64,000 bases of DNA, from assembly GCF_017487405.1 (NCBI RefSeq), contig NZ_CP062222.1, positions 186,001 through 250,000 of the forward strand, in the 5' to 3' direction. The number at the start of each line of letters is the position of its first letter. Position 1 is the stretch's first letter. The notes beneath the pieces are model-generated. The model had not been told where the DNA came from, made no database searches, and saw only the letters and a program-made list of their open reading frames with translations. The DNA comes from Brevundimonas goettingensis. Lineage in GTDB: Bacteria; Pseudomonadota; Alphaproteobacteria; Caulobacterales; Caulobacteraceae. Both the position numbers and the translations under genes were made by a program. Shown one piece after another: positions 9,369 to 64,000 of the stretch.

Positions 9369-9393
9369 GGCGATCTCCGGGAGGCGTTTGAAC

Positions 9394-10008: not shown

Positions 10009-10401
10009 CTAGCGTTGGGCGAACAGGCCGTTCATGCTCTTCCACTGGTATCGCTCCACCGGGCTTTCGCTGCCTGGGACGTCGAACGAAAACTCCACCA
10101 GACCCACCGTCGGACAGACGACGCTGATGGTGGCGCCGCGATCGGAGATCGCGCTGATCTCGTTGCAAGGCATCGCCCAATACCGTCTGGGTCGGGCGGA
10201 ATAGCGGAAGGCGCCGTTCAGGAAATCCGGGGGTGGCAAGGCGGACAGCAGTGGCGGCCCGACCGTTGTCCGGAAACAGCCGATCGCATCCCGGGCGCAG
10301 GGCGACAGTGGGTCGCCGGGATCCTCTTTCTCCACCGCATCCTGGTCATCGCGAAAGGCCGCCCACGTCTCGCCGGACGCAGGATCGACGAACATGGACA
10401 T
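10009..10401 (-). CDS. unknown protein; probably the 3' part of a broken lipoprotein gene
   Basis: A 130-residue open frame with balanced amino acid content (ISDRGATISVVCPTVGLVEF) and no recognised family. It lacks a signal peptide, but in the same frame 147 bp upstream (ATG at 10548) begins MRLIVCALVLSTLGAC, a good lipoprotein signal with an LGAC lipobox. In-frame reading between them hits a stop, while a different frame gives sensible sequence (EEVSGLDYRVAYK) that joins smoothly to this ORF (ATEGGFKGMSMF) after one frame change. The intact protein would be a lipoprotein of about 179 residues. Either two compensating indels broke the gene, or the assembly has errors in the C-rich runs. Confidence 0.6.
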   Translation of the reverse strand: MSMFVDPASGETWAAFRDDQDAVEKEDPGDPLSPCARDAIGCFRTTVGPPLLSALPPPDFLNGAFRYSARPRRYWAMPCNEISAISDRGATISVVCPTVGLVEFSFDVPGSESPVERYQWKSMNGLFAQR

Positions 10402-10653
10402 GCCCTTGAAGCCGCCCTCCGTCGCTTATAGGCGACGCGATAATCGAGACCGCTCACCTCTTCGTCGCGTCGGGGGTTCGTGTTGAGAGTGGGGGCGGGG
10501 ACAGGCTCCGAGCGTAGACAGGACAAGGGCGCAAACGATCAAACGCATGGCGGGAGGTTAAACCGGGCAATATCCGCCTTCCACCCCTGACGGTCGCCCG
10601 CTGGTCCGGTATCCGGAGGTGTGGGGTTGTATGGTCACGACCCGTTGCGGACA

Positions 10654-12129
10654 TCAGTTCGGATCGCGGGCCTCGATGGCGAGGCCCGACACCCAGGTCT
10701 CGAGGACCGCCGTATCGTTCATGTCGCCTTCGAAGCGATGGACGGGCGCGACCGGCTGATTGTGCCCGCGCGCCCGGCCGATGTAGAATTTCATGGGTAG
10801 GGACATCTGGCCGAGGCCACTCGGCACATTGATGTCGCGGACTTCCATGTAGATGGTGTCGGCGCCGGTCTCATGCCCGATGGGCGTGGCGCCGAGCCGG
10901 CCCCATAAATCCACCGCGTCGAGACAGGCCGACATGCACGCCTCGTCCGTCAGCACAAACACCTTACCGACGGGCGGATGATAGGGCGCCGCATCGGCAT
11001 TCCCGGGATCGTCGCCGACGCTCGGCGGTATGATCCAGCGATCGTCGCCCTTCGCGATCGCCGCCTCCAGTCCGGCGATGGATGCGCGATACCATTCTCG
11101 CGTACCGGGCGAGAGATTGCCATTCACGTCCCGTTTCTTGAGCCCGTGACGCAGGGACTGCACATTGGCCTCGGACGCTCTCCAGACCACGGTCATCGGA
11201 GGCTCCTGCGCGTGCTCGAAGGCGCCAGCGCCCCAGATCGCTTCGGCGATACGAGCCGACCATGCCGACGAGCCGCCGCCGTTCCCCCGCAGGTCGAAGA
11301 CGATGGTGGGCGCGTGACGCAGGGCGTCCGCCTGCGCTGAAATCTCTGCGAGGAGAGCCTCCAAGGCGCGGCCGTCGTCGCTCTCGGGGTTTCCGTTGAA
11401 GGTCGGAAGCGTGATCCAGTAGGCGCCGTCATCCTGCCGGCGCATTCCGGTGACCTGGCGCGGCGGCGAGTCGAAGACCTTGTAGCGAGAAAAGAACCCG
11501 GGTTCGGCCGTTCGCCAGTCGAGATCGATCGAGACCTCGCCGCCCTCGCTGTCGAACACGCAGTGCCGGATGGGCGCGACATAGGGGTCGCCGGTGTCCA
11601 GCATGACCATCGCGGCGAATATGGCCCGCTGGGAGGCGAGCTCCCAGCGACCGAAGCGGGCGCCCACCCGATCCTTTCCGATCTGGAAGGCGTCACGACC
11701 GTCGCACGACTTGAGGTGGGCGCCCACGGAAACGCCTGACCATGCCTCGGCCCGTGTCACCACCAGCCCCCGGCTTCCATCATCCCCCGCGATAAACCCC
11801 GGCCAGGCCCTTACCTGATCGGGGGTCGCCCCGAAGACTCCGAACCCGAGGTGACCGTCGTCGAAGGCGGCGGTGTAGTGCTGGATGGCGAAGAAATAGT
11901 CGGCAAAGCTGCGGGCTGTTCGGGCCCGATCCAGCGCCAGGGCGTATTGCGTTTCGTTCGTCGATGAAAAACTCGGGTCGTCGGGATTGACCATCCCCGG
12001 GTGACTCGAGGCGACGGCGTCATGGATCGCCGTGGCGTCCACTCGCAGGGTTTCAGCCCAATCCCTGCCCGTCTCGGCCTGAGCGGCGGCCAGACCGACC
12101 GACGCCGCAAGATAAAGCCAGATCGACAT
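10654..12129 (-). CDS. secreted S41-like (C-terminal processing protease family) peptidase
   Basis: A 491-residue protein with a signal peptide (MSIWLYLAASVGLAAAQA). The fold signature of S41 peptidases is present: IVFDLRGNGGGSS near residue 282 and, near residue 397, FVLTDEACMSACLDAVDLWG, where the Ser of MSAC sits where the catalytic nucleophile is expected. No PDZ domain is visible between the N-terminal helical domain and the protease core. Such enzymes cleave peptide tails in the periplasm. The usual Ser-Lys dyad could not be confirmed by eye, so it might be inactive or have a different specificity. It is monocistronic, with long gaps on both sides. Confidence 0.75.
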   Translation of the reverse strand: MSIWLYLAASVGLAAAQAETGRDWAETLRVDATAIHDAVASSHPGMVNPDDPSFSSTNETQYALALDRARTARSFADYFFAIQHYTAAFDDGHLGFGVFGATPDQVRAWPGFIAGDDGSRGLVVTRAEAWSGVSVGAHLKSCDGRDAFQIGKDRVGARFGRWELASQRAIFAAMVMLDTGDPYVAPIRHCVFDSEGGEVSIDLDWRTAEPGFFSRYKVFDSPPRQVTGMRRQDDGAYWITLPTFNGNPESDDGRALEALLAEISAQADALRHAPTIVFDLRGNGGGSSAWSARIAEAIWGAGAFEHAQEPPMTVVWRASEANVQSLRHGLKKRDVNGNLSPGTREWYRASIAGLEAAIAKGDDRWIIPPSVGDDPGNADAAPYHPPVGKVFVLTDEACMSACLDAVDLWGRLGATPIGHETGADTIYMEVRDINVPSGLGQMSLPMKFYIGRARGHNQPVAPVHRFEGDMNDTAVLETWVSGLAIEARDPN

Positions 12130-12635
12130 CCATCACCCCCATTCTCAGGCATGATGGACGACCGGTTGTTCGCTGCCTATCCCTTGCGACGGTACACAGG
12201 TCGAAGTGGCCTGGCCGCAGTGATCGCTCAACGTCCGCCTCCCACCCTGTCGCGACCTTGTGGAGATCCGCTTTCGAGGCGGAAGTCGACGCAACGGGTC
12301 GTCTCTTGCATCTCGGCATACGCGGCCCGCCGCGGGCGGCGAGATCGTCAGGGTCGGGAGGGGCGAAGGGATCTACAGGCCACGGATCGGCAGGACGGAG
12401 CCGGCCGACATGAACTGGCCAAGGAAAAAGGGCCGCCTCGCTTGTGCGGGGCGGCCCTTGCTCACTCCGGCCCGAGCCCCGCGGGGTCGGCGGCGGGTCG
12501 CGGGGACCAGCCGGAGGGAGTGTCTGTTCCTCCCCAGGTGGGGAGGCGCTGGATCCGGATGCGTTGGGTGGGGTTGGCCCCCTCCACCATGACGCAAGCG
12601 CGTCGCGGTACCCTTCCCGTTGAGGGGGACGGATT
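12130..12635. other. non-coding gap between the S41 gene and recA
   Basis: No convincing gene lies in these 506 bases; short frames here are Arg/Pro-rich as expected from GC bias. It holds two inverted repeats: the recA terminator listed separately, and CCTCCCC-AGGT-GGGGAGG at 12529-12546, a 7 bp stem with no T run. The left end carries the upstream region of the S41 gene, without a clear promoter. Confidence 0.6.
12422..12458 (-). terminator. rho-independent terminator downstream of recA
   Basis: On the minus strand a 10 bp stem AAGGGCCGCC / GGCGGCCCTT with a 12-base loop is followed at once by TTTTTCC. It lies about 180 bp past the recA stop and is the first terminator-like structure in that direction. 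Confidence 0.75.
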
Positions 12636-13718
12636 CTACCCCTCCAGATCCTGACCTTCGTCCGGCTCGGGCGTGCCCAGCAGGTCGTCGGCGATCTTGT
12701 TCTGCGATTTACGCACCTTGTCCTCGATGGCGTCTGCCATGTCGGGGTTGGCCTTGAGGAAGGCGCGGACGTTCTCGCGGCCCTGACCGATGCGGGTCGA
12801 GTCATAGGAGAACCAGCTGCCCGACTTCTCGATCACCCCGGCCTTGACGCCCAGGTCGATGACCTCGCCCAGCTTGGAGATGCCCTCGCCGTACATGATG
12901 TCGAAGATGACCTCGCGGAACGGCGGGGCGACCTTGTTCTTGACGACCTTGACCCGGGTGGTGTTGCCCGTGACCTCGTCGCGGTCCTTGATCGCGCCGG
13001 TGCGACGGATGTCCAGACGGACCGAGGCGTAGAACTTGAGCGCATTGCCGCCCGTCGTCGTTTCCGGCGAGCCGTACATGACGCCGATCTTGTGACGGAT
13101 CTGGTTGATGAACAGGACGATGCACTGGGTCTTGTTGATCGAGCCCGTCAGCTTGCGCAGGGCCTGGGACATCAGGCGGGCCTGAAGACCCGGCAGGCTG
13201 TCGCCCATCTCGCCCTCGATTTCGGCGCGGGGCGTAAGCGCAGCGACCGAGTCGACCACCACGATATCGACCGCGCCCGAGCGCACCAGGGTGTCGACGA
13301 TCTCGAGCGCCTGTTCGCCATTATCGGGCTGGGAGACCAGCAGTTCGTCGAGGTTGACGCCCAGCTTCTGGGCGTAGGACGGATCCAGCGCGTGTTCGGC
13401 GTCGACGAAGGCGGCGGTGCCGCCCGCCTTCTGGATCTCGGCCACCGTGTGCAGGGCCAGGGTCGTCTTGCCCGAGGACTCAGGGCCGAAGACCTCGATC
13501 ACCCGGCCGCGCGGCAGACCGCCGATGCCGAGCGCGATGTCCAGACCCAGCGAACCGGTCGAGACCGAGGGGATCACCTCGGCGACGCCGTTCTTGCCCA
13601 GTTTCATCACCGAGCCCTTGCCGAAGGCGCGATCGATCTGCGCGATCGCCGCCTCCAGGGCGCGTTGCTTGTCGCCGTCTTCCTTGCCCACCAATTTCAA
13701 TGCCGCCTGCGAAGCCAT
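12636..13718 (-). CDS. recA: RecA recombinase
   Basis: A 360-residue RecA. The start chosen is ATG at 13718 ([10 protein letters not shown]), which matches the usual N-terminus and follows GGGAGA; frames upstream are extension. Walker A is at residues 78-86 (GPESSGKTT), the co-protease/ATP-sensing region follows ([18 protein letters not shown]), with Walker B ([12 protein letters not shown]), the DNA-binding loop 1 region ([20 protein letters not shown]), and loop 2 ([20 protein letters not shown]). The acidic C-tail ([12 protein letters not shown]) is typical. It carries out strand exchange and triggers LexA self-cleavage. Two SOS boxes upstream indicate LexA control. Confidence 0.98.
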
Positions 13719-13788
13719 CTTACCGTTCTCCCTTGCCATGATTCCCATCAATGCCGTGGGAGAGACCCGCCGTGGACCCGCTCCCTGT

Positions 13789-13803
13789 GAACAGATGTAG
13801 AAC
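13789..13803 (-). promoter_or_regulatory. LexA (SOS) box 1 of recA
   Basis: Reads GTTCTACATCTGTTC on the minus strand, an exact match to the alphaproteobacterial SOS box GTTC-N7-GTTC. It is 71 bp upstream of the recA ATG. Confidence 0.88.
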
Positions 13804-13835
13804 ACGCTTCCGGGCGGTTGCCAAGACGTTCCTGA

Positions 13836-13850
13836 GAACATCCGTGGAAC
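13836..13850 (-). promoter_or_regulatory. second LexA-like box of recA
   Basis: Reads GTTCCACGGATGTTC on the minus strand, also an exact GTTC-N7-GTTC. Its start lies 47 bp from that of box 1, roughly 4.5 helical turns. It could be a second operator of recA or serve a transcript running to the right. Confidence 0.75.
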
Positions 13851-13934
13851 ATCTATGGGTCATGCGACCGTTTCTGACGCATTAAGCCGCGGTTAGAAAT
13901 GCAACCGTGGCCGCCGCTGATCGTTAACGACGAC

Positions 13935-14084
13935 ATGACATGCCACCATGACGACCCTCACGCCCATGACTATCGCGCCGCCACCGTCACCGGTGATCTG
14001 GCCGCATTCCTGCATCGCCACAATCGCCCGCTGATCCTCGCCGGGGCGGCGGTCGCGGCCGTGCTTCTGCTGATCGTGATCTAG
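13935..14084 (+). CDS. small single-pass membrane protein
   Basis: A 49-residue ORF that begins with a His/Asp-rich stretch (MTCHHDDPHAHDY) and ends in one hydrophobic helix (residues 32-49) running to the C-terminus, the layout of a tail-anchored small protein. An in-frame upstream start at 13899 is possible, but the ATG at 13935 gives the better composition. It diverges from recA and its start lies about 85 bp from the nearer SOS box, so it may be damage-regulated. The His-rich head might bind metal. No family is recognised; the ORF could be chance, though its hydrophobic profile is convincing. Confidence 0.5.
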   Translation: MTCHHDDPHAHDYRAATVTGDLAAFLHRHNRPLILAGAAVAAVLLLIVI

Positions 14085-14088
14085 CGGC

Positions 14089-15978
14089 TCAGCCCGCCGA
14101 GGCGGCCGGAGGCTCCGCCGGTTCGGCGAAACGGGCCGTCATCGACACCCCGCAGGCGAAGATCAGACAGGCCGCGGCGCATCCGGCCAGGGCGCGCGCC
14201 ACCTGGGGCGGGGCCAGAGGCCGGACGAACATCAGGATCAGCAGGCCGAGCGGAGCGAGAACGCCCGGCAGGTCCATGCCTATGCCGAGGAAGATCGGGT
14301 GGGCCAGGCTGGCGATCCAGCCGCCGCCGACGACCGTGACGACCGCCGCGGGGATCAGCGAGGCCTTCGAGACCAGACGCGCGCCGATCGCGGCCGACAG
14401 GGCCGCCGCCGCCGCCGCCGCGAGCGCGGGCCAGGTCAGCAGGAAGGCCGCCTCGGGCGCGACCGCCTGGGCCCCGGCCCCGAGCAGGCCGATCAGCAGG
14501 ATCAGCCCCAGCCAGCCGCCCCAGACCGAGCGCGGCGCGGCCTGCGACCACAGGCTGAGGCCCGCGGCGATCACGGCCGCTCCTATCAGGACGGGAATGA
14601 AGCCGCCCATGACGGTGGCCAGCAGGGCCGCGCCCACCACCAGCCCCGCCAGCACCCGCCGCCCGACCACATCGCGCCCGGCCAGCGCCGCCAGAGCCAC
14701 GGCAAGAACGGTCAGAGCCACGCCGCCCTCGATCCACGGCAGACGCCGCAGCAGGACATAATAGGTGTCCGCCGAGGTGACCCGGCTGGCGATGGGTCCC
14801 GCCAGCAACCGCACCGCCTGGGCCAGGACCAGACAGGTCGTCAGGAACCACAGCCCGCCCAGCAGGCCGCGTCCGATGTCGGCGACGGTCAGACCCCCCG
14901 CGACCTGGGATGCCGCATGCCGTCCGCCCCAGACCGCGAACAGGAACAGGGCCGCCGTGAGCCCGATCAGGATCCAGCCCGTCGCCGGCGCATGGGCGAC
15001 GATCAGGTGGTCGAGAACGTCGGCATAGACCCGGCTCTCGCCGCGCGCGGGCAGGGCGGGGGCGCGCAGCAGGGCGTCCGCAGCCTCCAGCGCCTGGGAG
15101 CCGATGTGCTGGACGCTGCCCTGATCCAGGGCGTCGGGCGTCGAGGTCGGGGAATGGTACTGGGCCGGGCGGCCGATGAAGGCCAGGTTGATCCCCGGCA
15201 GCCCCTGTTTGCGCGGCACGGTGAAGTCGGTGCCGTTCGGCATCAGGCTGTAGATCAGCACCGCCAGGGAGTTGCTGGTCGCCCCGCCGTCCGCCCTGGC
15301 CGCCGCCCGGGTGAACAGGTCGATGGTCTGGCGGTTGCCCGGACCCGTTTCGAACATCATGGCGCGGCCGCCGCCGCCCCGGGCCTCGAGGTTGACGATG
15401 GCGCCGACGCGGTCGCGTAAGGGGTGGGTCGTGAAGAAGTTGCGCGCCCCGTCCAGACCCAGCTCCTCGCCGTCGGTCAGGAGGACGATCAGGTCACGGT
15501 CGGCCAGGCCGCGCGCCTTGATGGCCCGCACGGCTTCCAGAATGGCCGCGACCCCGGCCGTGTCGTCGGCCGCGCCCGGCGACTTTGCGACACTGTCATA
15601 GTGGGCCATCAGGACCACGGCGGGCTTCGTCGGATCGCGGCCGGGCAGGACGCCGACCAGACTGATCGCCGGCTTCGACGGATCCAGCCCCCATTTCGTC
15701 AGGCGCGCCTTCGCGAAGTCCTCCAGCGGGCCGGCATGCAGGCTGGGGCTCAGCCCCAGGGCCGTCATCCGCCCGAACAGATAGCCGCGCACCGCCTCAT
15801 GCTCCGGCGTGCCCAGCGGATGGGGTTTTGCGGCGATGATGCGCACATCGGTCATGGCGCGCGCGGTCGAGAAGGCGGTCGCCGGCGTCTCCGGCCCCCT
15901 GGGCGACGGCGTCTGCAGGGCGATCACGCCGATGAACAGCGCAAGCGCCAGCGAGCCGAGAAGCAGGGCGAGCCGCAT
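14089..15978 (-). CDS. M28 family zinc peptidase with C-terminal membrane domain
   Basis: A 629-residue protein starting with a signal anchor (MRLALLLGSLALALFIGVI). Residues about 40-300 are an M28 aminopeptidase domain with the zinc motifs in order: MAHYDSV near residue 124, ADDTAGV, the catalytic LLTDGEELGLDG near 165 and NLEARG. After residue 330 come eight or nine hydrophobic helices. Family members remove N-terminal residues from peptides outside the cytoplasm, and the same architecture occurs in Fxna-like and vacuolar membrane proteases. It converges with the 49-residue ORF, only 4 bp apart, and is probably monocistronic. Confidence 0.88.
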   Translation of the reverse strand: MRLALLLGSLALALFIGVIALQTPSPRGPETPATAFSTARAMTDVRIIAAKPHPLGTPEHEAVRGYLFGRMTALGLSPSLHAGPLEDFAKARLTKWGLDPSKPAISLVGVLPGRDPTKPAVVLMAHYDSVAKSPGAADDTAGVAAILEAVRAIKARGLADRDLIVLLTDGEELGLDGARNFFTTHPLRDRVGAIVNLEARGGGGRAMMFETGPGNRQTIDLFTRAAARADGGATSNSLAVLIYSLMPNGTDFTVPRKQGLPGINLAFIGRPAQYHSPTSTPDALDQGSVQHIGSQALEAADALLRAPALPARGESRVYADVLDHLIVAHAPATGWILIGLTAALFLFAVWGGRHAASQVAGGLTVADIGRGLLGGLWFLTTCLVLAQAVRLLAGPIASRVTSADTYYVLLRRLPWIEGGVALTVLAVALAALAGRDVVGRRVLAGLVVGAALLATVMGGFIPVLIGAAVIAAGLSLWSQAAPRSVWGGWLGLILLIGLLGAGAQAVAPEAAFLLTWPALAAAAAAALSAAIGARLVSKASLIPAAVVTVVGGGWIASLAHPIFLGIGMDLPGVLAPLGLLILMFVRPLAPPQVARALAGCAAACLIFACGVSMTARFAEPAEPPAASAG

Positions 15979-16075
15979 GATGATCCCCTCCGATCAGAGA
16001 CAAGACTGTAGGTGTGCGGACGAGGGTTTGGGAAGTCGGTTCGCCTGCCAGAGTGCGGGATTGGGCAGGAGGAAA

Positions 16076-16894
16076 TCAGGCCGCGCGGCTGAGCGCCGAG
16101 GGCGCCTTCACGAACAGGCCGCGGCGACCGTTGACGGGGCGGAAGGCGACCGTGTCCCCGTCCAGCCGCTCGTCGGTCCCGAGGAACAGGCAGCCGTCGT
16201 CGACCAGACGCCGCTCCAGCCCCTCGATGGCCATGCCGCGCTTGGCCGGGTCCATGTCCGAGAGCACATTGCGGCAGAAGATGACGTCATAGCGCGGGGC
16301 GCCGGCGATCGGCTCGTCCAGCAGGTTGGCGCGCTCGAACTGGACGACGTGGCGCAACTCTTCGCGGGCGGCCCACTGTTCGTCGGCCGGCTCGAACCAG
16401 CGCAGCATGGCCGAGGCGGACAGGCCGCGCTGGATCTCGAAGGTGGTGTAGCTGCCGGCCCGGGCCCGCTCGATCGCGCGCTGCGACAGGTCGGTGGCGA
16501 TGATCTCGACATTGGCGCCGGCTTCCAGCCCGCCCATCGCCAGGGACCAGGCCTCCTGGCCGTTGGAGCAGCCGGCCGACCAGACGCGGACCAGGCCGTT
16601 TTCGCGGACCCGGCCGATGGCGGGCAGAAGCTCGCGGGCGAAGGTGTCGAACGGCGCCCGGTCCCGACGGAACCAGGTCTCCGGGTTCAGCATGGTCTCG
16701 ATGACGGCCCAGCCGAGGGAGGCGACCGGCTTGGCCCAGAGGGCGCTCAGTAGGGCGTCGACGCTGTCGAAGCCTTCGCGGCGGGCCACGGGGGCCAGGC
16801 GGTGCTCGGCCAGATGAATCCGGTCGCGCGTCAGGCGGAAGCCGGCCCGGGAGGCCAGCAGCGTCTGGAGGCGTTCGAAATCGTCCTGGGTCAT
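16076..16894 (-). CDS. cheR: CheR-type protein-glutamate methyltransferase
   Basis: A 272-residue CheR. The N-terminal helical domain (FERLQTLLASRAGFRLT) is followed by the SAM-binding fold (VRVWSAGCSNGQEAWSLAM) and the motif YDVIFCRNVLSDMDPAKRG. CheR methylates glutamates of chemoreceptors using S-adenosylmethionine. It ends a three-gene set chpT - cheY-like - cheR, with only 20 bp to the response regulator upstream. No receptor, CheA, CheW or CheB gene is near, so this is an orphan set rather than a full chemotaxis operon, and it may act in a CtrA-linked pathway. Confidence 0.9.
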   Translation of the reverse strand: MTQDDFERLQTLLASRAGFRLTRDRIHLAEHRLAPVARREGFDSVDALLSALWAKPVASLGWAVIETMLNPETWFRRDRAPFDTFARELLPAIGRVRENGLVRVWSAGCSNGQEAWSLAMGGLEAGANVEIIATDLSQRAIERARAGSYTTFEIQRGLSASAMLRWFEPADEQWAAREELRHVVQFERANLLDEPIAGAPRYDVIFCRNVLSDMDPAKRGMAIEGLERRLVDDGCLFLGTDERLDGDTVAFRPVNGRRGLFVKAPSALSRAA

Positions 16895-16914
16895 GGCTTG
16901 TCCAGAAGACGTCC

Positions 16915-17286
16915 TCAGACGGCTCCCACCTCCGCCAGCTTGGATTGCAGGATCTCGCCGTCGAACGGCTTCATCACATAGTCGTCGGCGCCGGCCGCCA
17001 GGGCCTCGGCGATCCGGTCCGGCGCGGTCTCGATGGTGCAGAACAGCACCTTGGGCGTGGCGCCGCCGGGCTGCGAACGCAGGCGGCGCAGGAAGGTCAG
17101 GCCGTCCATGACGGGCATGTTCCAGTCCAGCAGGACGATGTCGGGCATGACCGAGGCGCAGTAGGACAGGGCCTCGGCGCCGTCCGCCGCCTCGTCGACC
17201 TCGAAGCCCAGACCCTCCACGATGCGCCGCGCGACCTTCCGGATGATCCGGCTGTCGTCGACGATAAGGCAGGTTCTGGCGTCCAA
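16915..17286 (-). CDS. CheY-like single-domain response regulator
   Basis: A 123-residue receiver domain without output domain. The acidic pair is D10-D11, the phosphoacceptor D54 (VLLDWNMPVMDG), the switch Thr T84 (FCTIET) and the conserved Lys K106 (DYVMKPF), so all catalytic residues are present. It could take phosphate from a histidine kinase and pass it on or bind a partner. Its position between chpT and cheR recalls the Caulobacter arrangement and suggests a link between CckA-ChpT signalling and motility; that is inference from context. Confidence 0.9.
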   Translation of the reverse strand: MDARTCLIVDDSRIIRKVARRIVEGLGFEVDEAADGAEALSYCASVMPDIVLLDWNMPVMDGLTFLRRLRSQPGGATPKVLFCTIETAPDRIAEALAAGADDYVMKPFDGEILQSKLAEVGAV

Positions 17287-17373
17287 GTCCGGGGTCTCCA
17301 GCGGGGGCTAAAGCGCCCTCACTTCAAGGTTATTATCGCTTTACGCCGGTTAACGAGCCGTTGGGAAAAGGGA

Positions 17374-18036
17374 TTAAGCGGGCATCCGGGCGACCAGGGC
17401 AACGCGGCCTTCCTCTGCGATGACGCTCAGGCTGCCGCCGGCTTCATGGGCGGTCAGCCACAGCCAGTAGGGCTGGATCCACTGTCCGGCCAGGCCCTCT
17501 TTGAGCCGCTCGCCCGACAGGCCGGTGATGGCTTCGGGCTTCAGCCGGGCGCGCGCGCCCTCGGCCAGACCGGTCAGGATCAGGGTGTCGCCGTCGCGCC
17601 GGCTGGTGATCACCGCCTCGCCGCCCGAGGGCAGGGCCCCGGCGGTCAGATAGGCGAGATTGAGCAGGGCCCGGGCCGAGGGCTTGTCGAAATCCGTCTC
17701 CGACACCCGCCAGTCCATGGTCGCCCGGCCGCCCTCGATCATCCCCGCGACCAGCCCCTTGAGCTCGTCGCCCGTGAACCGCTCGCTGGTCGTCGCCGCG
17801 CCGAAGGCCACGCGGCAGAAATAGACGAGGGACAGAAGCTTCGACGCGCTCTGGGTGATCAGGCCCAGGGCGTCGTCGCGCATGTCGGCGGCCGACGGAT
17901 CGTTGAGCAGGTCCAGGCCCGAATTGATCGCTCCGGCCGGGCTGACGAAGTCGTGGCACAGCTTGGCGGCGATGAAGGCGGCCAAGTCGGCGCCGGACAG
18001 TTCGGCGTTTACGTCGATGGTCAGATCGTCGGTCAT
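17374..18036 (-). CDS. chpT: ChpT histidine phosphotransferase
   Basis: A 220-residue protein from ATG at 18036 (an upstream ATG at 18057 would add MRRKRSF). The phosphorylated His is H28 in AAKLCHDFVSPAGAINSG, within the helical hairpin used for dimerisation, followed by DPSAADMRDDALGLI. The C-terminal half is a degenerate kinase-like fold ending in GRVALVARMPA. ChpT carries phosphate from the kinase CckA to CtrA and CpdR, so it controls the cell cycle regulator encoded 19 kb away in this window. It diverges from cysQ across 95 bp and leads the cheY-like/cheR pair across an 87 bp gap. Confidence 0.92.
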   Translation of the reverse strand: MTDDLTIDVNAELSGADLAAFIAAKLCHDFVSPAGAINSGLDLLNDPSAADMRDDALGLITQSASKLLSLVYFCRVAFGAATTSERFTGDELKGLVAGMIEGGRATMDWRVSETDFDKPSARALLNLAYLTAGALPSGGEAVITSRRDGDTLILTGLAEGARARLKPEAITGLSGERLKEGLAGQWIQPYWLWLTAHEAGGSLSVIAEEGRVALVARMPA

Positions 18037-56164: not shown

Positions 56165-56539
56165 ATGGACGGAAAAGGGGACGCGGCGGGGACGGACGTC
56201 GAGGCCCTGAGGCGCGACCTGCAGCGGCGCATGGTCGAGGCGATGCAGGGCCCGCCCGACGAGATGGAGCGCACGGCCCGGGCGGTGACGAGCGCCGCCA
56301 AGGCCCTCCAGACGCTGATCGACACGGTGCCGGGCGACGACAACGGGAGCCGGAATGAAGGACTCGACGCCAAAGGCGAGCAGCGTCTTCGCGACCAGTT
56401 CCTGGCCCGCCTGGATGCTCTCGCAGCCACGCTGGAGCTGGAAGGCGTGGAGCGATGTCCCGAGTGCGGAAGATTTGGGCCGGATCGAGCGCGACTGGAA
56501 CGGATGGCGGGGACCGGCGCAGACGCCGCCGGAGACTGA
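56165..56539 (+). CDS. small protein upstream of terminase (GTA gp1-like)
   Basis: A 124-residue protein from ATG at 56165 (a GTG at 56147 would add six residues). It is helical and charged, with a pair of Cys near the end (ERCPECGRFG) like a short zinc knuckle. Its position fits the small protein at the start of the head cluster of the Rhodobacter GTA. The last 185 bp overlap the terminase gene in another frame, so both frames code if the terminase start is right. Family identity is not proved. Confidence 0.65.
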   Translation: MDGKGDAAGTDVEALRRDLQRRMVEAMQGPPDEMERTARAVTSAAKALQTLIDTVPGDDNGSRNEGLDAKGEQRLRDQFLARLDALAATLELEGVERCPECGRFGPDRARLERMAGTGADAAGD

Positions 56540-57671
56540 CTGGACGACCTGGCTGTTTCTGGGCGGTCGCGGGGCGGGCAAGACCCGGGCCGGGGCCGAG
56601 TGGCTGAACGCCCGGGCGGTGAAGGGGGCGAGGCTGGCTTTGGTCGGGCCGACCCTGCACGACGTGCGCGAGGTGATGATCGAGGGGCCGTCGGGTCTGA
56701 GGGCCGTGGCGGCGCCGGGCGACCGACCGACCTATCATTCGAGTCGGCGGTTGCTGACCTGGCCGAGCGGGGCGCGGGCCTTCGCCTTTTCGGCGGAGGA
56801 TCCTGAGAGTTTGCGTGGGCCCCAGTTCCATGGGGCCTGGGCCGATGAATTCTGCGCCTGGAGGAACCCGGGCGAGGTGCTGGCGATGCTGAGGCTGGGT
56901 CTGAGGCTGGGCGACGATCCCCGGCTGATGGTGACGACGACGCCCAAGCCATCGAAGGCGCTGAAGGCCCTGATCGCCGAGGCGGAGACCGAGGTGACGC
57001 GGGCGGGGACGGCGGCCAATGCGGTCAATCTGTCGTCCGGGTTTCTGGGCGGCCTGCGCGGCCGCTACGGCCAGACCCGGCTGGAGGCGCAGGAGATCGA
57101 GGGACGGGTGCTGGATGATGCCGGCGGCCTGTGGTCGCTGGAGATGTTGAACGCTTGCAGGGGCGCGGCGCCGGAACGGTTCGACAGGGTGGTGGTCGGG
57201 GTGGATCCGCCCGCCACCTCTCATGGCGACGCCTGCGGGATCGTGGTCGCGGGGCGGCTGGACGACCGGGCCTATGTCCTGGCCGACCTGAGCGTGAAAC
57301 AGGCCTCGCCGCTGGCGTGGGCGGAGGCGGCGACCGCGGCGGCCCGGACATTCGGCGCCGACCGGGTGATCGTCGAGACCAACCAGGGCGGGGAGATGGT
57401 GGGTCAGATGCTGGCCTTCGCCGGGTGCAAGGCCGTCGTCACCCCGGTGTTCGCGCGGACGTCCAAGACCGCGCGGGCCGAGCCCGTGGCCCTGCTCTAT
57501 GAGAAGGGGCGGGTGACCCACTGCGGGGCCTTGGAGGCCCTGGAAGACGAGATGATGGCTCTGGGCTCCGGGAGCGCTGGAGCTAGCCCCGATCGCGCCG
57601 ACGCCCTGGTCTGGGCGATCAGCCATTTGATGCAGGACCGGGGCGAGGGGCCCCGCATACGCCGGCTGTAG
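56355..57671 (+). CDS. phage/GTA terminase large subunit
   Basis: A 438-residue DNA-packaging ATPase and nuclease. Walker A is LGGRGAGKTRAGAEW near residue 70, the Walker B region SLRGPQFHGAWADEFCAW and the nuclease acid DADALVWAIS-like tail (DRADALVWAISHLMQDRG). The family packages DNA headful into capsids; in GTAs it packs random host DNA. The start at 56355 gives overlap with the upstream gene; ATG at 56415 is an alternative. The head spike genes follow after 41 bp. Confidence 0.92.
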   Translation: MKDSTPKASSVFATSSWPAWMLSQPRWSWKAWSDVPSAEDLGRIERDWNGWRGPAQTPPETDWTTWLFLGGRGAGKTRAGAEWLNARAVKGARLALVGPTLHDVREVMIEGPSGLRAVAAPGDRPTYHSSRRLLTWPSGARAFAFSAEDPESLRGPQFHGAWADEFCAWRNPGEVLAMLRLGLRLGDDPRLMVTTTPKPSKALKALIAEAETEVTRAGTAANAVNLSSGFLGGLRGRYGQTRLEAQEIEGRVLDDAGGLWSLEMLNACRGAAPERFDRVVVGVDPPATSHGDACGIVVAGRLDDRAYVLADLSVKQASPLAWAEAATAAARTFGADRVIVETNQGGEMVGQMLAFAGCKAVVTPVFARTSKTARAEPVALLYEKGRVTHCGALEALEDEMMALGSGSAGASPDRADALVWAISHLMQDRGEGPRIRRL

Positions 57672-57712
57672 GCGGGCCTGTTCGACAGGATTTTCACCGA
57701 CAGGAGACGACC

Positions 57713-58000
57713 ATGCCCGCGACCCCTTCCAAGGACGCGTATCGATCCCATGCGCCGGCGCCGGGCGCGCCCGCGCGCCGCGCCGAGGCCGTGACGCCCA
57801 ACGACGGCGCCGACCTGAACATCTACGCCAAGGCCCTGTACGTCGGCGGGGCGGGGGATCTGCGCCTGATCCCGGTCGGCGCCGACGACGCCGAGATCAT
57901 CACCCTGAAGTCCCATCCGATCGGCTATGTCGCCGTCCAGACCCGGCGGGTGCTGGCGACCGGCACGACAGCGACCTTCATCGTGGCCCTGGCGGACTGA
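57713..58000 (+). CDS. head spike base protein (RCAP_rcc01079 family)
   Basis: A 95-residue protein whose core VTPNDGADLNIYAKALYVGG and VQTRRVLATGTTATFIVALA matches the spike-base protein GhsA of the Rhodobacter capsulatus GTA. In that particle GhsA anchors a fibre on the head that helps attachment to recipient capsule. The usual head-spike operon is separate from the main cluster; here it lies inside it. It overlaps the next gene by one base. Confidence 0.8.
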   Translation: MPATPSKDAYRSHAPAPGAPARRAEAVTPNDGADLNIYAKALYVGGAGDLRLIPVGADDAEIITLKSHPIGYVAVQTRRVLATGTTATFIVALAD

Positions 58001-59025
58001 TGATCGGGCAGGATCTGACCATCCCGACGCTGGCGCTGATGCGGCCGGGTGCGGCGGGTCTGGCGCTGGATTTCGTCGCGGGCGTCTATCGCCTGGACGG
58101 CGCCGACTATTCGAGTTTCGCAGCCTTGCCGGGCGCCAGCTTCAGCCGCACCGGGGCGGGGACGGCGCTGACCGTCGCGGGGGGCGTCACCAGTTTCGCC
58201 ACCGGCGCACCCCGGATCACGGACCGTGGCCTGCTGGTCGAGGAAGCCCGCACCAATCTGTTCCTGAACAGCGCCGCGCCGGTCACCCAGACGATCACCC
58301 TGTCGGCCGGCACCTGGCAGCAGACGGCCTGGGGTTCGACCGGGGCGGTGACCTCTACCGCGGGCACCGCCGTGGGAACCGGCTTCGGGGTGACGGCGTC
58401 GAGCGCCAACGGAACATCCCGGTCACTGGTCATCGCAACGGCGGGTACAGTGACCTTCACGGTGTCCGGCGCGCCTTTGTACGCGCAGGTCGAGCTGGGC
58501 GGTTTCGCCACCAGCCCCATCATCACGACCGGCGCCTCCGCCACACGGGGAGCGGACACCGCCTTCATAACGGGAGCGGCCGCGCTTGCGACCACTCCTG
58601 CCGTTCTCGTGGCGGACTTCACGTCCACCATTCTCCCTAGCGGCGTTGGAAGCATCGGCATTCTGGGCCTCGACGACGGATCGCTCAGCAATCGGGTGCA
58701 GCTCCGCGCCGTAGTGTCCGGAGGCCAGGCTCAGAACACCGTCGTCTCCGGCGGTTCTGTCTTGCTGAACTCCGATGGAGCGGGCGGAAACCCCCTGTCG
58801 TCCCTTACCAAACAGGCACTGCGGGTATCCCAGGCCGGCGCGGTGACGACCGCCAGAAACGGGACCGTCATGGTGGGGCCGTCGGGAGCGATGACCATGC
58901 CGACGTTGAACCGCGTCTCCCTGGCCGGCCTTCCGAGTTCAAGCGCCCTGAACGGCCATCTGGCGCGGGCGCGGATCATTCCCGGCGAGATGAGCGACGC
59001 CCAGCTTCAGACGGTGACCCAATGA
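58000..59025 (+). CDS. head/tail fibre-like protein
   Basis: A 341-residue Gly/Ser/Thr/Ala-rich, beta-strand-rich protein. The N-terminal half has a phage tail fibre motif: APRITDRGLLVEEARTNLFL, followed by repetitive beta elements and a possible jelly-roll (LVADFTSTILPSGVGSIGIL). Its place after the spike base suggests that it is the fibre (GhsB-like) part of the head spike. No enzymatic motif is seen. Overlaps the next gene by 4 bp, so the three spike genes are translated in coupling. Confidence 0.72.
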   Translation: MIGQDLTIPTLALMRPGAAGLALDFVAGVYRLDGADYSSFAALPGASFSRTGAGTALTVAGGVTSFATGAPRITDRGLLVEEARTNLFLNSAAPVTQTITLSAGTWQQTAWGSTGAVTSTAGTAVGTGFGVTASSANGTSRSLVIATAGTVTFTVSGAPLYAQVELGGFATSPIITTGASATRGADTAFITGAAALATTPAVLVADFTSTILPSGVGSIGILGLDDGSLSNRVQLRAVVSGGQAQNTVVSGGSVLLNSDGAGGNPLSSLTKQALRVSQAGAVTTARNGTVMVGPSGAMTMPTLNRVSLAGLPSSSALNGHLARARIIPGEMSDAQLQTVTQ

Positions 59026-59288
59026 TCGAGATCGACATCATCGGACCCCTGTTCGACCCGCCTCTTGTCGAAGGGGGGGAACCGGTCTTGCTGGACGGGT
59101 GGCACGTGAACACTACGCCCGAAGGCCTGGCCGCGCGCGCGGATCTGGAGCCGTTCGTGGTCATGCCGGGACGGCTGCGCCGGGTCTGGGCCGGCGACGA
59201 TCCGCTGTCACCCGCTTTCACGGTGGCGCTGTGGTTCGCCGATGAAGCCCAGGGCGCGATCCTGTGGGCGGCCGGCGAGGACGGTTGA
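59022..59288 (+). CDS. small protein of the spike module
   Basis: An 88-residue protein (MIEIDIIGPLFDPPLVEGGE) with acidic and Trp-rich segments. Nothing identifies a family. It overlaps the fibre gene by 4 bp, so it is probably a partner or chaperone of the spike. Ends 50 bp before the portal gene. Confidence 0.6.
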   Translation: MIEIDIIGPLFDPPLVEGGEPVLLDGWHVNTTPEGLAARADLEPFVVMPGRLRRVWAGDDPLSPAFTVALWFADEAQGAILWAAGEDG

Positions 59289-59338
59289 CGGGCTCCGGCC
59301 CGGATTTCGGAATTCAGACACAAACGGGGAAGACGGAC

Positions 59339-60511
59339 ATGACCTGGCTTCGATGGCGTGACCGCCGCCGGGAGCGTGAAGGCGCGCCCGAGATCAAGGA
59401 CAGCCGGGCTGGGCCGCTGATCGCCCTGACCGGCGCCGGGCGGCCGAGATGGACGCCACGCAACTATGCCGACTTGGCCAGCGAAGGGTTCGGCAAGAAT
59501 CCGGTCGTCTATCGTTGCGTACGGATGATTGCAGAGGCCGCCGCCTCGACCCCGTTGCGGGTGTTCGTAGAGGGTGAGCGGGCGGACGACCATCCGCTGG
59601 CGCGTCTGCTGGCCAAACCCAATCCGGAGCAGTCCGGGGCGGAGTGGCTGGAGGGGGTGTACGGTGCGCTGCAGACGGCGGGGAACGCCTATGTCGAGGC
59701 GGTCGGCGAGACGTCAGGCGAGCGTGGGCCACAAGAGCTGTGGGGCCTGAGGCCGGACCGGATGGCGGTTGTGCCCGGGCGCGGCGGCTGGCCCGAGGCC
59801 TGGGAGTACTCGGTGGACGGCCGGTCGACCCGCATTCGCCGCGAGGCCGACGGGTGGATGCCGGTGATGCAGCTGAAGCTGTTCCACCCGACAGACGACT
59901 ATTACGGCTTGTCGCCGCTGGAGGCCGCGGCCTTCGCCATCGACGTGCACAATTCCTCGGGGGCCTGGAACAAGGCGCTTCTGGACAATTCGGCGCGGCC
60001 GTCGGGGGCTCTGGTCTATGGCGGCAAGGATGGGGAGCGGCTGACGGCGGATCAGTTCGCGGCGCTGAGGACCGAGTTGGGCGACAACTATTCGGGCATG
60101 GCCAACGCCGGGCGGCCTCTGCTGCTGGAAGGCGGGCTGGACTGGAAGCCGATGAGCCTGTCGCCGTCCGACATGGACTTCATCGCCGGCAAGCACGCGG
60201 CGGCCCGGGAGATCGCCCTGGCCTTCGGCGTGCCGCCGCAGCTGCTGGGTATCCCGGGCGATGCGACCTACGCCAACTATCGCGAAGCCAATGCCGCCTT
60301 CTGGCGCGGGACGGTGATCCCGCTGGTGCGCAAGACGGCCGGGGCGCTGACGGGCTGGCTGGCGCCGAAGTTCGGAGACGTGCGGATCGAGGCCGACCTG
60401 GACGCCGTACCCGCCCTGCAGGGCGAGCGGGACGCCCTGTGGGCGCGGCTGGAGGCGGCGAGCTTCCTGACCGATGAGGAGCGTCGACGTCTGGCGGGGG
60501 TCGCGGGCTGA
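59339..60511 (+). CDS. phage/GTA portal protein
   Basis: A 390-residue HK97-type portal (LYDNSARPS-like DNSARPSGALVYGG, LTADQFAALRTELGDNYSGM and SDMDFIAGKHAAAREIALAF). Start ATG 59339 follows GGGGAAG. The portal is the dodecameric ring through which DNA enters the head. Spacing to the spike genes is small (50 bp), and the next gene overlaps it by one base, as in a phage operon. Confidence 0.92.
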   Translation: MTWLRWRDRRREREGAPEIKDSRAGPLIALTGAGRPRWTPRNYADLASEGFGKNPVVYRCVRMIAEAAASTPLRVFVEGERADDHPLARLLAKPNPEQSGAEWLEGVYGALQTAGNAYVEAVGETSGERGPQELWGLRPDRMAVVPGRGGWPEAWEYSVDGRSTRIRREADGWMPVMQLKLFHPTDDYYGLSPLEAAAFAIDVHNSSGAWNKALLDNSARPSGALVYGGKDGERLTADQFAALRTELGDNYSGMANAGRPLLLEGGLDWKPMSLSPSDMDFIAGKHAAAREIALAFGVPPQLLGIPGDATYANYREANAAFWRGTVIPLVRKTAGALTGWLAPKFGDVRIEADLDAVPALQGERDALWARLEAASFLTDEERRRLAGVAG

Positions 60512-60738
60512 TGGAGGAGATCAGAAAGGTTCCGGTCGCCCTGATCGTCGCCCTGGTCATGCAGACCATCGGGGGGCTGGTCTGGGCCGGGAGTGCAGCG
60601 GCGCGGATATCGACTTTGGAGGACCGCGTCGGGGAGCAAAGGCTGGTCGCCGAGCGGCTGGCGCGGCTGGAGGAGCAGGGTCTGGCGACGCGCACCGCCG
60701 TGGATCGGATCGAGCGGCGACTGGAGGAGCGGCGATGA
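60511..60738 (+). CDS. small membrane/coiled-coil protein of head cluster
   Basis: A 75-residue protein with one membrane helix (VPVALIVALVMQTIGGLVWA) and a coiled coil (LEDRVGEQRLVAERLARLEE). A gene of this size and shape lies between portal and protease in Rhodobacter-type GTAs. Function unknown. Overlaps portal by 1 bp and protease by 4 bp. Confidence 0.75.
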   Translation: MEEIRKVPVALIVALVMQTIGGLVWAGSAAARISTLEDRVGEQRLVAERLARLEEQGLATRTAVDRIERRLEERR

Positions 60739-61190
60739 GCGATGCGGTTGCGGCGGCCGACGCCGGCCTGCGGATCGAGGGCTATGCCTCGCTTTGGGGT
60801 GTCGCGGATCTGAACGGCGATGTCGTGGCGAAGGGCGCCTTCGCGGACAGTCTGGCGAAGACGGGCGCCGCCGGGGTGCGGATGCTGCACCAGCACGAGG
60901 CGCGGGCCGTGGTCGGGGTCTGGGAAGAGATGGTCGAGGACGAGCGCGGCCTGTGGGTGCGCGGCCGGATCGAGGACTGGTCCGCCGAGGCGCGCTTCGC
61001 ACGCGCCCTGAGCAGGGCCGGGGCGCTGGACGGGCTGTCGATCGGGTTTCGCGCGGCCAAGGCCCGGCGCGAGGGGCGGCTGAGGGTGCTGACGCGGGTG
61101 GAGCTGTGGGAGGTGTCGCTGGTGACGTTCCCGATGCTGCCGGGGGCGAGGTTCAGTGTCGCCGGCGGCCCATGCAGTCGATCCAGGTGA
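60735..61190 (+). CDS. HK97-type prohead protease (GTA gp4-like)
   Basis: A 151-residue U35-type protease from ATG at 60735. Candidate catalytic His in MLHQHEARAVVG and Ser in LDGLSIGFRA. It cleaves the scaffold part of the capsid protein during head maturation. The C-terminus (GARFSVAGGPCSRSR) runs 38 bp into the opposite-strand gene at 61153, which suggests that the normal end may have been altered by insertion of that block. Confidence 0.85.
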   Translation: MSDAVAAADAGLRIEGYASLWGVADLNGDVVAKGAFADSLAKTGAAGVRMLHQHEARAVVGVWEEMVEDERGLWVRGRIEDWSAEARFARALSRAGALDGLSIGFRAAKARREGRLRVLTRVELWEVSLVTFPMLPGARFSVAGGPCSRSR

Positions 61191-61704
61191 GGGCGGCGGT
61201 CATGCCGGAGAGGGAGAAGGTCGCCGAAGCCGGGCCGGTTTCGGACTGGTAGGTCCAGCGGGCGGAGCGGGCCTGGCGAAAGCCTGCGACCAGTTTGTCG
61301 ACGGCGTCATGGTCCGAGACGCGGAACTCATTGATGCTGGACGTCGGTCTGGCGAGAGTGGACAGGTCCGTGGTCTGGCGGCCCAGAGTGACCGACATGG
61401 GCTGGCCGTCGCCCGCAGACATCGGAGTGACGGCGACGAACTCGACCTGGTACGGCTCGCCCGGTCGGGCGAGGGCGATACGCAGTTGCTGGGCATAGAC
61501 GCCCTGGCCGGTGCGGTCGGGCAGGGCGACCACGGCCGAGCAATAGCCGTCGGGGCGGCAGGCGCCGAGGACGTTCTGGAAATAGGCGCGGGTCTCGCCG
61601 AAGCGGCTGTGGGTCGCCGCGCGGCAGATCGTTTCGGCCGAGGCGGTTCCGGCGCAGGCGGCCAGAAGGAGCGTGGCTGTCGCCACGGTGAATTTCGATG
61701 TCAT
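61153..61704 (-). CDS. secreted protein, unknown (inside head cluster)
   Basis: A 183-residue protein from ATG at 61704 (GAGGGG before it) with a signal peptide ending near TASA. Mature part has four Cys (ETICRAA, GACRPDGYCSA, WIDCMGR) suitable for disulfides. No family recognised. It lies on the opposite strand from the head genes, and its 3' end overlaps the protease gene by 38 bp. It is the left-most gene of a three-gene block inserted between protease and capsid. Confidence 0.65.
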   Translation of the reverse strand: MTSKFTVATATLLLAACAGTASAETICRAATHSRFGETRAYFQNVLGACRPDGYCSAVVALPDRTGQGVYAQQLRIALARPGEPYQVEFVAVTPMSAGDGQPMSVTLGRQTTDLSTLARPTSSINEFRVSDHDAVDKLVAGFRQARSARWTYQSETGPASATFSLSGMTAALTWIDCMGRRRH

Positions 61705-61773
61705 GACTTGCCCCTCGTTTCCCGTAGCGACCGGACCATGCGGGTCGGGACGAGTCAATGAACCGCGTTCGGC

Positions 61774-62534
61774 TCAGGGCTCCCGGGCCTGGAGTTGTTT
61801 GAGTTTGTCCAGAGCGCGTCGCGCGGCTTCCAGGGTCTTGGGGTTGGCGAGCATGCGGCCTGAGGCGATCAGAATGATCACCATCACGCCGAACGGCATC
61901 CGAAGGAGAATGACGGGGATCGCGAGGATCATGCCCAGCCCGAACATGAGGCCGATGTAGAGATTGACGTCCTGGGGAGCCAAACCGGTCGCCCGGCGGC
62001 TTTCCGGGGTGCGAGGGGTGACAGCGTCCTGGACCCGCTGCAAGGCGCCGACATTGACGAGACGGGGCGGGGCTTCGAGCGCTGTGTCTTTTTCCGGATC
62101 GTTCCACGCCTGAAGGTCCAGCAGGGGGCTGGGTTGCGCAGGATGGCCGGATCGAAGGCGATGGAGCGGCCCTGGTCGTCGACGGTGAAGACGCGGTCGA
62201 AGGGCGTCGTGCGAAAGTCGATGGCCGAGGTGTCCATGTCGAAGGCGTCGCCCTCCAGTCCCATGAGCACGCCCTCGCGAAGCCGGGCCTTGAAGGCCAT
62301 GGAGCCGGGCAGATCGCCGACCATGGCGTGGACGGTGCCGAAGGATCCGCTGGGGGTACGTTTCGGCGGCGGCCGATGCGGATCGACGATCATTTCGGTG
62401 TAGAGGCCCGCGCCGGTGTTGCGGCGGGCGCCGGGGAGGCTCTCTTCGAACTGGCCTGCGAGGTCGGGGGCGATGTCGCGCAGGTCCCAGCCGAGGGCCT
62501 GGATGACGGCCTGTTCGAGGGGCGTGAAGGGCAA
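61774..62534 (-). pseudogene. membrane-associated protein gene with a one-base frameshift
   Basis: Two frames together give one sensible protein. Frame one runs from TTG at 62534 (PFTPLEQAVIQALGWDLRDI) to about 62131 (AFDPAILRNP), then becomes nonsense. From there, one base shifted, the sequence continues SPLLDLQAWNDPEKDTALEA and on into two membrane helices (YIGLMFGLGMILAIPVILL) and a coiled tail. Deletion of one C in the CCCAGCCCCC run near 62130 would explain it. Full product about 253 residues, no family recognised. Mutation or assembly error cannot be told apart. Confidence 0.65.
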
Positions 62535-62539
62535 AGGTA

Positions 62540-63007
62540 TCAGCCGACCCGAAGTCGCCGACGTTCGAAGTGGTGATAGATCGACTCCACCGCGATTTCG
62601 ATGATCGAGCCGGCCAGCATCAGGGTCCAGAAGGCAGCGGTCGCGACATCAATGTGCGCTTGGGGGGCATCGATGTGGTTCAGCCACAGCAGCATTCCTC
62701 CCACGAAGAGCCAGGCCAGCGCCAGGATGATCTGGAGGATGACGGCGACCGGTCGGCGAGCGAACTTTTCGCGAAAACTCATGCCCGCGCTGAGGCTGCC
62801 CTCCAGACGGGCTTGCCGGTTGCTGTAGGCGATCACGAAGATCGCCCAGGCCAGCACCAGAGCGCCCGCACACCATGGCCCCCACGGGCGAATATCGAAC
62901 ACCGTATAGGCGCCGATGAAGGCCGCGACGGTGAATGCCGCGAACACCTTTGGCCAAGGGTCTGACCCCAGCCAGCGATTCATTCCATTTCGGGCGGCGT
63001 TTTCCAC
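62540..63007 (-). CDS. integral membrane protein, unknown
   Basis: A 155-residue protein with four membrane helices (about 22-40, 45-62, 88-110, 121-145). The start is a GTG at 63007; ATG at 62983 would give 147 residues. It begins only 46 bp from the capsid start on the other strand, so the two promoters or leaders overlap. Function unknown. It is the right-most gene of the inserted minus-strand block. Confidence 0.65.
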   Translation of the reverse strand: MENAARNGMNRWLGSDPWPKVFAAFTVAAFIGAYTVFDIRPWGPWCAGALVLAWAIFVIAYSNRQARLEGSLSAGMSFREKFARRPVAVILQIILALAWLFVGGMLLWLNHIDAPQAHIDVATAAFWTLMLAGSIIEIAVESIYHHFERRRLRVG

Positions 63008-63053
63008 GCCCCGATCCTGACCGCGTTACGGCGGTTTTTCAACCGGAGATATC

Positions 63054-64000
63054 ATGAAAGAGACCAAACAGGCCCCGGCCTATGCGCACGAGTCGGGGGC
63101 GCGCGCCGCCATGCATGAGATGATGGCGGCGTTCGAGGCGTTCAAAGGCGCCAATGACGCGCGGCTCGAGGAGATCGAGCGCAAGGCGTCGGCCGACACG
63201 CTGCTGGAAGAGAAGGTGGCGCGGATCGACCAGGCCATCGCCGGCGCCCAGGCGCGGCTGGACCGCGTGCTGAGCGAGGCGCGACGGCCGGAGCTGGGGG
63301 GCGTCGAGAGCCCCTCCGGCGGTTCGCGGTCTCCCTCGCCGTTTCACGGGGAGGAGAAGGCCGCCTGGGACGGCTATCTGCGCGCCGGCCAGTCGCATGG
63401 GCTGGAGTTGAAGGCCGGGCTGTCGACGGCGTCGAACTCGGCCGGCTATGTCGTGCCGGCGGAGACGGAGCGGGCCATCGAGCGACGTCTGATGGCGGGC
63501 TCTCCGATGCGCGAGATCGCCACGGTCAAGACGGTCGCCAACGGCCTGTATCGCAAGCCGGTCTCGACGGCGGGCGTGGTCGCGGGCTGGGTGGCGGAGA
63601 CCGCCGCGCGGCCCGAGACGGATCCGGCGACCCTGGCCCTGCTCGATTTCCCGGCGGCCGATCTCTACGCCTCGCCGGCCGCGACCCAGGCCCTGCTGGA
63701 CGACGCCCTGATCAATCTGGACGAGTGGCTGGCCGCCGAGGTCGAGGACGCCTTCGCCGCCCAGGAGACCACGGCCTTCGTGATCGGCGACGGGACCAAC
63801 AAGCCCAAGGGCTTCCTCAGCTATACGACGGTCGCCGACGCCAGCCAGACCTGGGGCCAGATCGGCTATATCGCCTCGGGCGCGGCGGGGGCCTTTTCCA
63901 GCAGCAGTCCGGCCGACAAGCTGATCGACCTGATCTATGCGCCCAAGGCCCAGTACCGGCCGAACGGGCGGTTCGTGATGAACCGCAAGACGGTCTCGGC
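63054..64000 (+). CDS. HK97-type major capsid protein, partial
   Basis: The first 315 codons of a capsid gene that continues past the window. The first 100 residues are a charged coiled coil (MAAFEAFKGANDARLEEIER), the delta domain that the prohead protease removes. The mature capsid fold begins near GLELKAGLSTASNSAGYVVP, with conserved YRKPVSTAGVVAGWVAET and GDGTNKPKGFL. It should form the T=3 head of a GTA or phage. It follows the minus-strand block instead of directly following the protease. Confidence 0.93.
   Translation, partial: MKETKQAPAYAHESGARAAMHEMMAAFEAFKGANDARLEEIERKASADTLLEEKVARIDQAIAGAQARLDRVLSEARRPELGGVESPSGGSRSPSPFHGEEKAAWDGYLRAGQSHGLELKAGLSTASNSAGYVVPAETERAIERRLMAGSPMREIATVKTVANGLYRKPVSTAGVVAGWVAETAARPETDPATLALLDFPAADLYASPAATQALLDDALINLDEWLAAEVEDAFAAQETTAFVIGDGTNKPKGFLSYTTVADASQTWGQIGYIASGAAGAFSSSSPADKLIDLIYAPKAQYRPNGRFVMNRKTVS

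Follow-up and report, generated by a model that had tools for sequence, protein, structure and literature searches.

The window analyzed here, the 64,000 nucleotides at bases 186001-250000 of the 3.98 Mb single-contig genome of Brevundimonas goettingensis, holds at positions 56418-64000 the 5' part of a gene transfer agent (GTA) cluster of the type known from Rhodobacter capsulatus (RcGTA), which extends beyond the window as far as the megatron gene, with dnaJ next to it. Within this cluster, genes of a head-spike module lie between the large terminase and portal genes, all on the plus strand. The terminase gene, TerL (56418..57671; start codon uncertain, with the open reading frame (ORF) opening at 56355), matches the Pfam families Terminase_6N (E = 1.4e-30) and Terminase_6C (E = 3e-26). 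After a gap of 41 bp come the spike base of the Rcc01079 family, of 95 amino acids (aa; 57713..58000), a putative spike fibre of 341 aa (58000..59025), and an 88-aa protein without a family, p88 (59022..59288). The portal ORF opens with a GTG at 59264, and its probable start is the ATG at 59339, 50 bp beyond p88 (59339..60511; Phage_portal, E = 1.2e-87). Base and fibre overlap in the motif TGATG and fibre and p88 in ATGA, and the GC contents of base (0.719) and fibre (0.684) are close to those of TerL (0.712) and portal (0.702). A preliminary description had proposed this series of terminase, Rcc01079-type base, fibre-like protein, small protein and portal, overlapping by 1-4 bp or lying close, and both the series and its spacing are confirmed by the profile matches and coordinates.

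The base matches NF048002, the 'spike base protein, RCAP_Rcc01079 family', with 79.3 bits over a cut-off of 28 (E = 1.9e-22), and by sequence it finds two PDB entries, 8cjz_h (E = 2.9e-5) and 6tb9 of RcGTA (E = 8.2e-5). The likeness to Rcc01079 on which the preliminary description had staked its reading of the 95-residue protein is therefore present. Looking up the code 8cjz in the literature returned a chance string only. NCBI already annotates the base as a spike base in Brevundimonas. The fibre matches a tail protein family, phrog_5939 (E = 8.6e-19), and scores 24.5 bits against NF048003 (GTA_spike_fiber), below the cut-off of 36, while a relative from the genus that occupies this slot (L113; L and G numbers are our handles for loci and genomes) passes with 41.1 bits. 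We therefore do not file the fibre in that family, but regard it as spike-like by its place and by its predicted fold, which is ConA/CBM40-like (ConA/LamG-like) and of a carbohydrate-binding kind. In the comparison with GhsB that the preliminary description had suggested, the 341-residue product agrees in slot and predicted fold, and falls short of the family cut-off. A PDB sequence search with the fibre gave nothing meaningful. Relatives of p88 occur in 4 of 12 fibre-type cassettes, this one included, and p88 is possibly a fibre assembly factor.

In RcGTA, the anchor peptide is an alternating-hydrophobic N-terminus, and proteins encoded downstream of the base in genus loci may, as a group, have similar N-termini. 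Across 32 dereplicated downstream proteins, the mean N-terminal alternating-hydrophobic run is 2.72, compared to 1.93 in shuffles (0 of 2000 as high), 1.71 in the protein interior (0 of 2000) and 1.55 where alignments of other GTA proteins begin (138 starts). Taken alone, the fibre of this genome scores 2, like the controls.

The remaining genes follow the plan of an RcGTA-type (type I alphaproteobacterial) GTA. Overlapping the portal gene in TGATG is a gene for a 75-aa protein (p75, 60511..60738; phrog_19911, E = 1.9e-5), conserved after the portal gene in our tblastn map; then comes the prohead protease gene (60735..61190; Peptidase_S78, E = 3.1e-26; TIGR01543 over its cut-off), whose ATG overlaps the preceding stop in ATGA. 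The major capsid gene (63054..64000, and on to genome position 250310) matches TIGR01554 over its full length with 390 bits. To the right of the window follow the rest of the capsid gene and genes for a head-tail connector, the major tail protein (tail tube), an Rcc01695-type distal tail protein (DTP), hub and NlpC peptidase, then a full-length megatron of 1241 aa (1434 bits against a GTA cut-off of 800), with a DnaJ-type chaperone gene next. The whole genome has one portal match and one spike-base match. A guessed IHF-like pattern has 18 matches in the genome, none inside the cluster.

The module is conserved yet dispensable. Counted at E up to 0.001, matches to the spike-base model occur in 43 of 131 Brevundimonas genomes; at family level 19 of 199 genomes match, 14 from the genus, and at class level 11 of 385, this one included (10 over the cut-off); 88 of the 131 genus genomes have no match. 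Megatron matches are found in 105 of the 199 family genomes (91 over the cut-off) and in 63 of the 385 class genomes (35 over it). None of 14 control genomes, Caulobacter vibrioides among them, matched the spike-base model. The 43 base-bearing genus genomes include 34 with a TerL match, 40 with a portal match and 33 with the order TerL-base-portal. Eight of the ten exceptions have no TerL match (L031, L033, L160, L164, L174, L179, L180 and L185; L031 and L174 start at a contig end, and L185 also has no portal match). The other two are L178, whose contig does not reach the portal, and L167, which has a weak base match outside any GTA. We see the same arrangement in a Brevundimonas metagenome-assembled genome (L113), a Caulobacterales one (L114) and Brevundimonas sp. 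Leaf363 (L115), which were not counted again among the 43, where they appear to be represented by L168, L172 and L163.

Comparison with spike-less clusters used 26 of the 88 genus genomes; five have no portal match (L081 is only 868 bases long), and 7 of the other 21 have no TerL match. In the 14 with both genes, the TerL-portal gap is at most 164 bp in 11 and holds other genes in three (gap lengths, taken from alignment ends, are approximate, and gap ORFs were named by eye). Toxin-antitoxin, DUF559-like and transposase genes were seen by eye in the gap of spike-less L096, L099, L100, L102 and L103. For other genera of the family we took 14 loci among those with a megatron match, of which L112 has no TerL match; by tblastn, none of the 13 with both genes has a base in the gap, which measures 0.5-1.7 kb in five of them, four with other ORFs by eye. 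The gene order sought in other Caulobacteraceae is thus found within the base-bearing part of the genus and is missing from these other-genus loci.

Ten class-level base loci were fetched, the sub-cut-off G499 being left out. Altogether, 18 further base loci come from other genera, from class members, from Aureimonas and, as a second copy, from one genus genome, and only L134 is near GTA-like head genes by tblastn. There, in the 2.0 Mb genome G298, for which no megatron match is listed, TerL, portal, protease and capsid precede base and fibre, and tail genes come after these. In G207 and G340, of another family, megatron and base are 0.4-0.8 Mb apart, like the split described for R. capsulatus.

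Downstream of the base, the gene content is exchanged. Comparison with representative proteins sorted the 43 loci into 12 with a lectin-like fibre, 19 with an SGNH hydrolase plus an acyltransferase-3 (AT3; type B), six with SGNH alone (type C) and six unclassified, including L167; by eye, L165, L176 and L182 of these last are SGNH-like and L180 is lectin-like. Tested members exceed the cut-offs of Pfam Lipase_GDSL_2 and Acyl_transf_3, and one type-B gene is cut or split in L034, L164, L174 and L185. The cassette in the window has neither an SGNH nor an AT3 gene. In L026, L165 and L182, the bases are 90-98% identical and the portals 89-93%, and the effectors have no mutual BLASTP match. A different case is L157 compared to L158 and L181, in which the portals are 88-90% identical, the bases only 59-61% and the effectors unrelated, so that base and effector were apparently replaced together. 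The SGNH Ser, Asp and His, which we take to be catalytic, are invariant in 19 of 19 aligned proteins, and the first four Foldseek matches of a weak SGNH model are peptidoglycan O-acetylesterases. In 21 of the 24 type-B and type-C loci where both could be read, the stop of the base and the start of SGNH overlap. Three decayed clusters (L028, L034 and L185), with capsid or tail genes cut or missing from the portal onward, still carry the base-SGNH-AT3 cassette or much of it.

The base has diverged together with its cluster. Mantel correlations are 0.85 for base and portal (n = 38; 0.53 without type B, n = 22), 0.79 for base and TerL (n = 33) and 0.74 for base and capsid (n = 21), compared to 0.84 for TerL and portal (n = 31). 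Among 11-15 type-B loci, median dN/dS is 0.195 for the base and 0.246 for SGNH (15 loci each) and 0.394 for AT3, with 0.115 for the portal, 0.123 for the protease and 0.271 for TerL. On a quick tree of 74 loci, made from their joined portal, protease, capsid and p75 sequences, spike state requires nine changes (at least six by starred branches); shuffled states average 24.9 changes, and none of 500 shuffles is as low as nine. Three spike-less loci are the first branches in the genus. One gain with repeated loss within the genus fits this tree, although the change counts themselves give no direction.

Viral contigs show in-cluster bases at other positions as well. A search of these contigs with the fibre alone confirmed no relative; once alignments were used, they yielded 361 stretches for the base and 203 for the fibre, of which the best 80 of each were kept and the base loci analyzed. 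Thirty of the best 80 of the 361 base loci show the order TerL-base-portal, and these resemble genus GTA clusters that were catalogued as viruses. IMG/VR contigs of ~5-18 kb (L194-L224 and L226) have this resemblance. In-cluster spikes are thus not peculiar to this lineage: in L228, a metagenome viral contig, the cluster at 1294-17517 reads terL-portal-prot-cap-base-mtp-dtp-hub-megatron, with a 520-aa protein after the base and a megatron ORF of 1401 bits covering profile positions 1-911 of 1299. In L245, L253 and L265, whose clusters have megatron-like genes, the base lies between the distal tail protein and the hub; the megatron of L245 is present as two ORFs (736 and 828 bits), and the gene after the base there is DNA-binding regulator-like and not a fibre.

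These observations bear on what the element is and how its spike genes came to be there. A GTA-related prophage or active phage, which the preliminary description had left as an option, would agree with HK97-type head genes, which are common to phages, with the fibre relatives encoded in 203 stretches of viral contigs, and with the matches to Rcc01079 and Rcc01080 reported in R. capsulatus phages (PMC8601537). We consider it very improbable, because the full-length megatron exceeds the GTA cut-off, a YcgN-family host gene lies upstream here and in most relatives mapped, and a DnaJ-type gene ends the cluster, as it does in relatives where the fetched stretch extended far enough (L028 and L034). 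Moreover, none of the ten genome matches to PF00589 (Phage_integrase) is within 550 kb of the cluster, a search that covered tyrosine integrases, and neither base nor fibre has a tblastn match at E 1e-3 in 50,697 GenBank phage records. Where an ordinary prophage with an integrase had been envisaged to the right of the window, there are GTA tail genes, megatron and DnaJ (the search did not extend to serine recombinases or to phage replication and lysis genes). We take the element to be a resident RcGTA-type GTA at a conserved chromosomal place, whose particles would package random host DNA. The claim that attachment and packaging genes form one head operon stands as gene order, in 33 of 43 genomes and with a base that tracks the portal. 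Two corrections apply to the idea that they merged in this lineage: the module is not fixed, with effectors exchanged between relatives, and in-cluster spikes also exist outside the lineage (L228). It is therefore only in part clear whether 'merged' stands for a gain in this lineage or a loss in others. An ancestral phage or GTA might have had spikes among its head genes, with most lineages, R. capsulatus too, moving or losing them, which would suit the bases among GTA-like genes in L228, L243, L134 and the DTP/hub group. We find this rather doubtful, because the positions differ (TerL/portal, after capsid, DTP/hub) in a way that fits separate insertions, and because the base is missing from the gap of all 13 other-genus loci and from the three early-branching genus loci. 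The base tree places 41 in-cluster bases on one side of a branch and 18 others on the other (SH-aLRT 91, not starred), but it is built from just 95 columns, has stars on 9 of its 56 inner branches and does not contain the viral-contig bases.

The function of the module can likewise be read in other ways. In genomes with both enzymes, SGNH could be the acceptor-side partner of an acyltransferase that modifies the host surface, and not a spike. AT3-SGNH fusions do work as acyltransferases (PMC9558356), AT3 comes after SGNH in all 19 type-B cassettes, although this is true by the definition of the type, and the decayed L028 cluster retains the pair. Such a role is unlikely in our view, given the SGNH starts that overlap base stops, the esterases that are the best fold matches of the weak model, and the AT3-less SGNH genes in six type-C loci and, by eye, in L165, L176 and L182. 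More broadly, base, fibre and p88 might be moron-like cargo that settled in a permissive gap and, whether or not it is expressed, does not enter the particle. By eye, unrelated genes occupy this gap in L079, L087, L096, L099, L100, L102 and L103, the C. crescentus gap holds gtaQS and terminator repeats downstream of TerL (PMC11150451), and the type-B acyltransferase-3 is by family a membrane enzyme and not a virion part. However, for the base family a virion structure has been solved on a GTA capsid (PMC7296036), the base co-diverges with portal and TerL, purifying selection acts on it in type B, and in the window its stop codon shares the motif TGATG with the start of the next gene, all of which makes cargo quite improbable.

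We therefore favor, with good though incomplete confidence, a head-spike module in the main operon of an RcGTA-type GTA, in which a conserved capsid adaptor carries an exchangeable receptor-binding head. Pentamers of the 95-aa base would sit on capsid vertices, as Rcc01079 does, and the N-terminus of the next protein would dock into them, leaving its C-terminal domain exposed as the receptor-binding head. Because the head of the B. goettingensis fibre is predicted to be a ConA/CBM40-like sugar-binding domain, the spike probably binds a recipient surface polysaccharide before the tail engages. Exchange of head domains on a co-diverging base would retune the surface glycan that the particle grips. 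A tentative and rather speculative extension is a modular cassette with interchangeable lectin and O-acetylesterase heads, in which one large clade combines an esterase spike and an acyltransferase as a writer/eraser pair. If so, the acyltransferase could acetylate the producer's own surface glycan, and the pair would determine whether DNA goes to kin or to other cells.

Apart from the module, four minus-strand ORFs of 201, 89, 201 and 155 aa without a family lie between protease and capsid (61153..63007) and are absent from the preliminary description. The 201-aa ORF at 61929-62534 appears to be an old resident of the cluster, because a relative of it is present in 27 of the 54 genus loci that have both a protease and a capsid match.

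How GTAs choose recipients is an open question, and glycan choice and kinship now become directly testable with sister strains, because spike genes in a conserved cluster show natural exchange of heads on a fixed adaptor. An NF048002 match between TerL and portal is also a simple marker for spiked GTAs. What appears to be new is the in-cluster spike module with exchangeable heads; the spike-base family and its Brevundimonas annotation were known. In the parts of the literature available to our search, we found no description of spike genes in the main GTA cluster or of their exchange, and 'spike' is absent from the main texts, supplements excluded, of PMC9836097, PMC11409702, PMC10883770, PMC9662315, PMC11150451, PMC9632790 and PMC13236601. 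The R. capsulatus spike genes are located apart from the main cluster (PMC6209664, PMC8601537), and RcGTA receptor-binding genes are described as separate from it (PMC6209664, PMC13420450). With the RcGTA spikes Rcc01079/Rcc01080 (GhsA/GhsB), the B. goettingensis module shares the base family, a long fibre gene directly after the base and a sugar-binding-type predicted fibre fold. It differs in its place between TerL and portal, in the extra 88-aa gene and in a fibre below the NF048003 cut-off, and in relatives SGNH proteins take the fibre's slot. CcGTA of Caulobacter crescentus has the same TerL-to-megatron plan, but with gtaQS and terminator repeats between TerL and portal (PMC11150451). Finally, the type-B cassettes of relatives share the acyltransferase-3 and SGNH families with phage O-antigen acetylases of the Sf6 Oac type (PMC9558356, for the acetylases) and with spike esterases, whereas they unite both enzymes in a single GTA cassette, downstream of the gene for a capsid adaptor.

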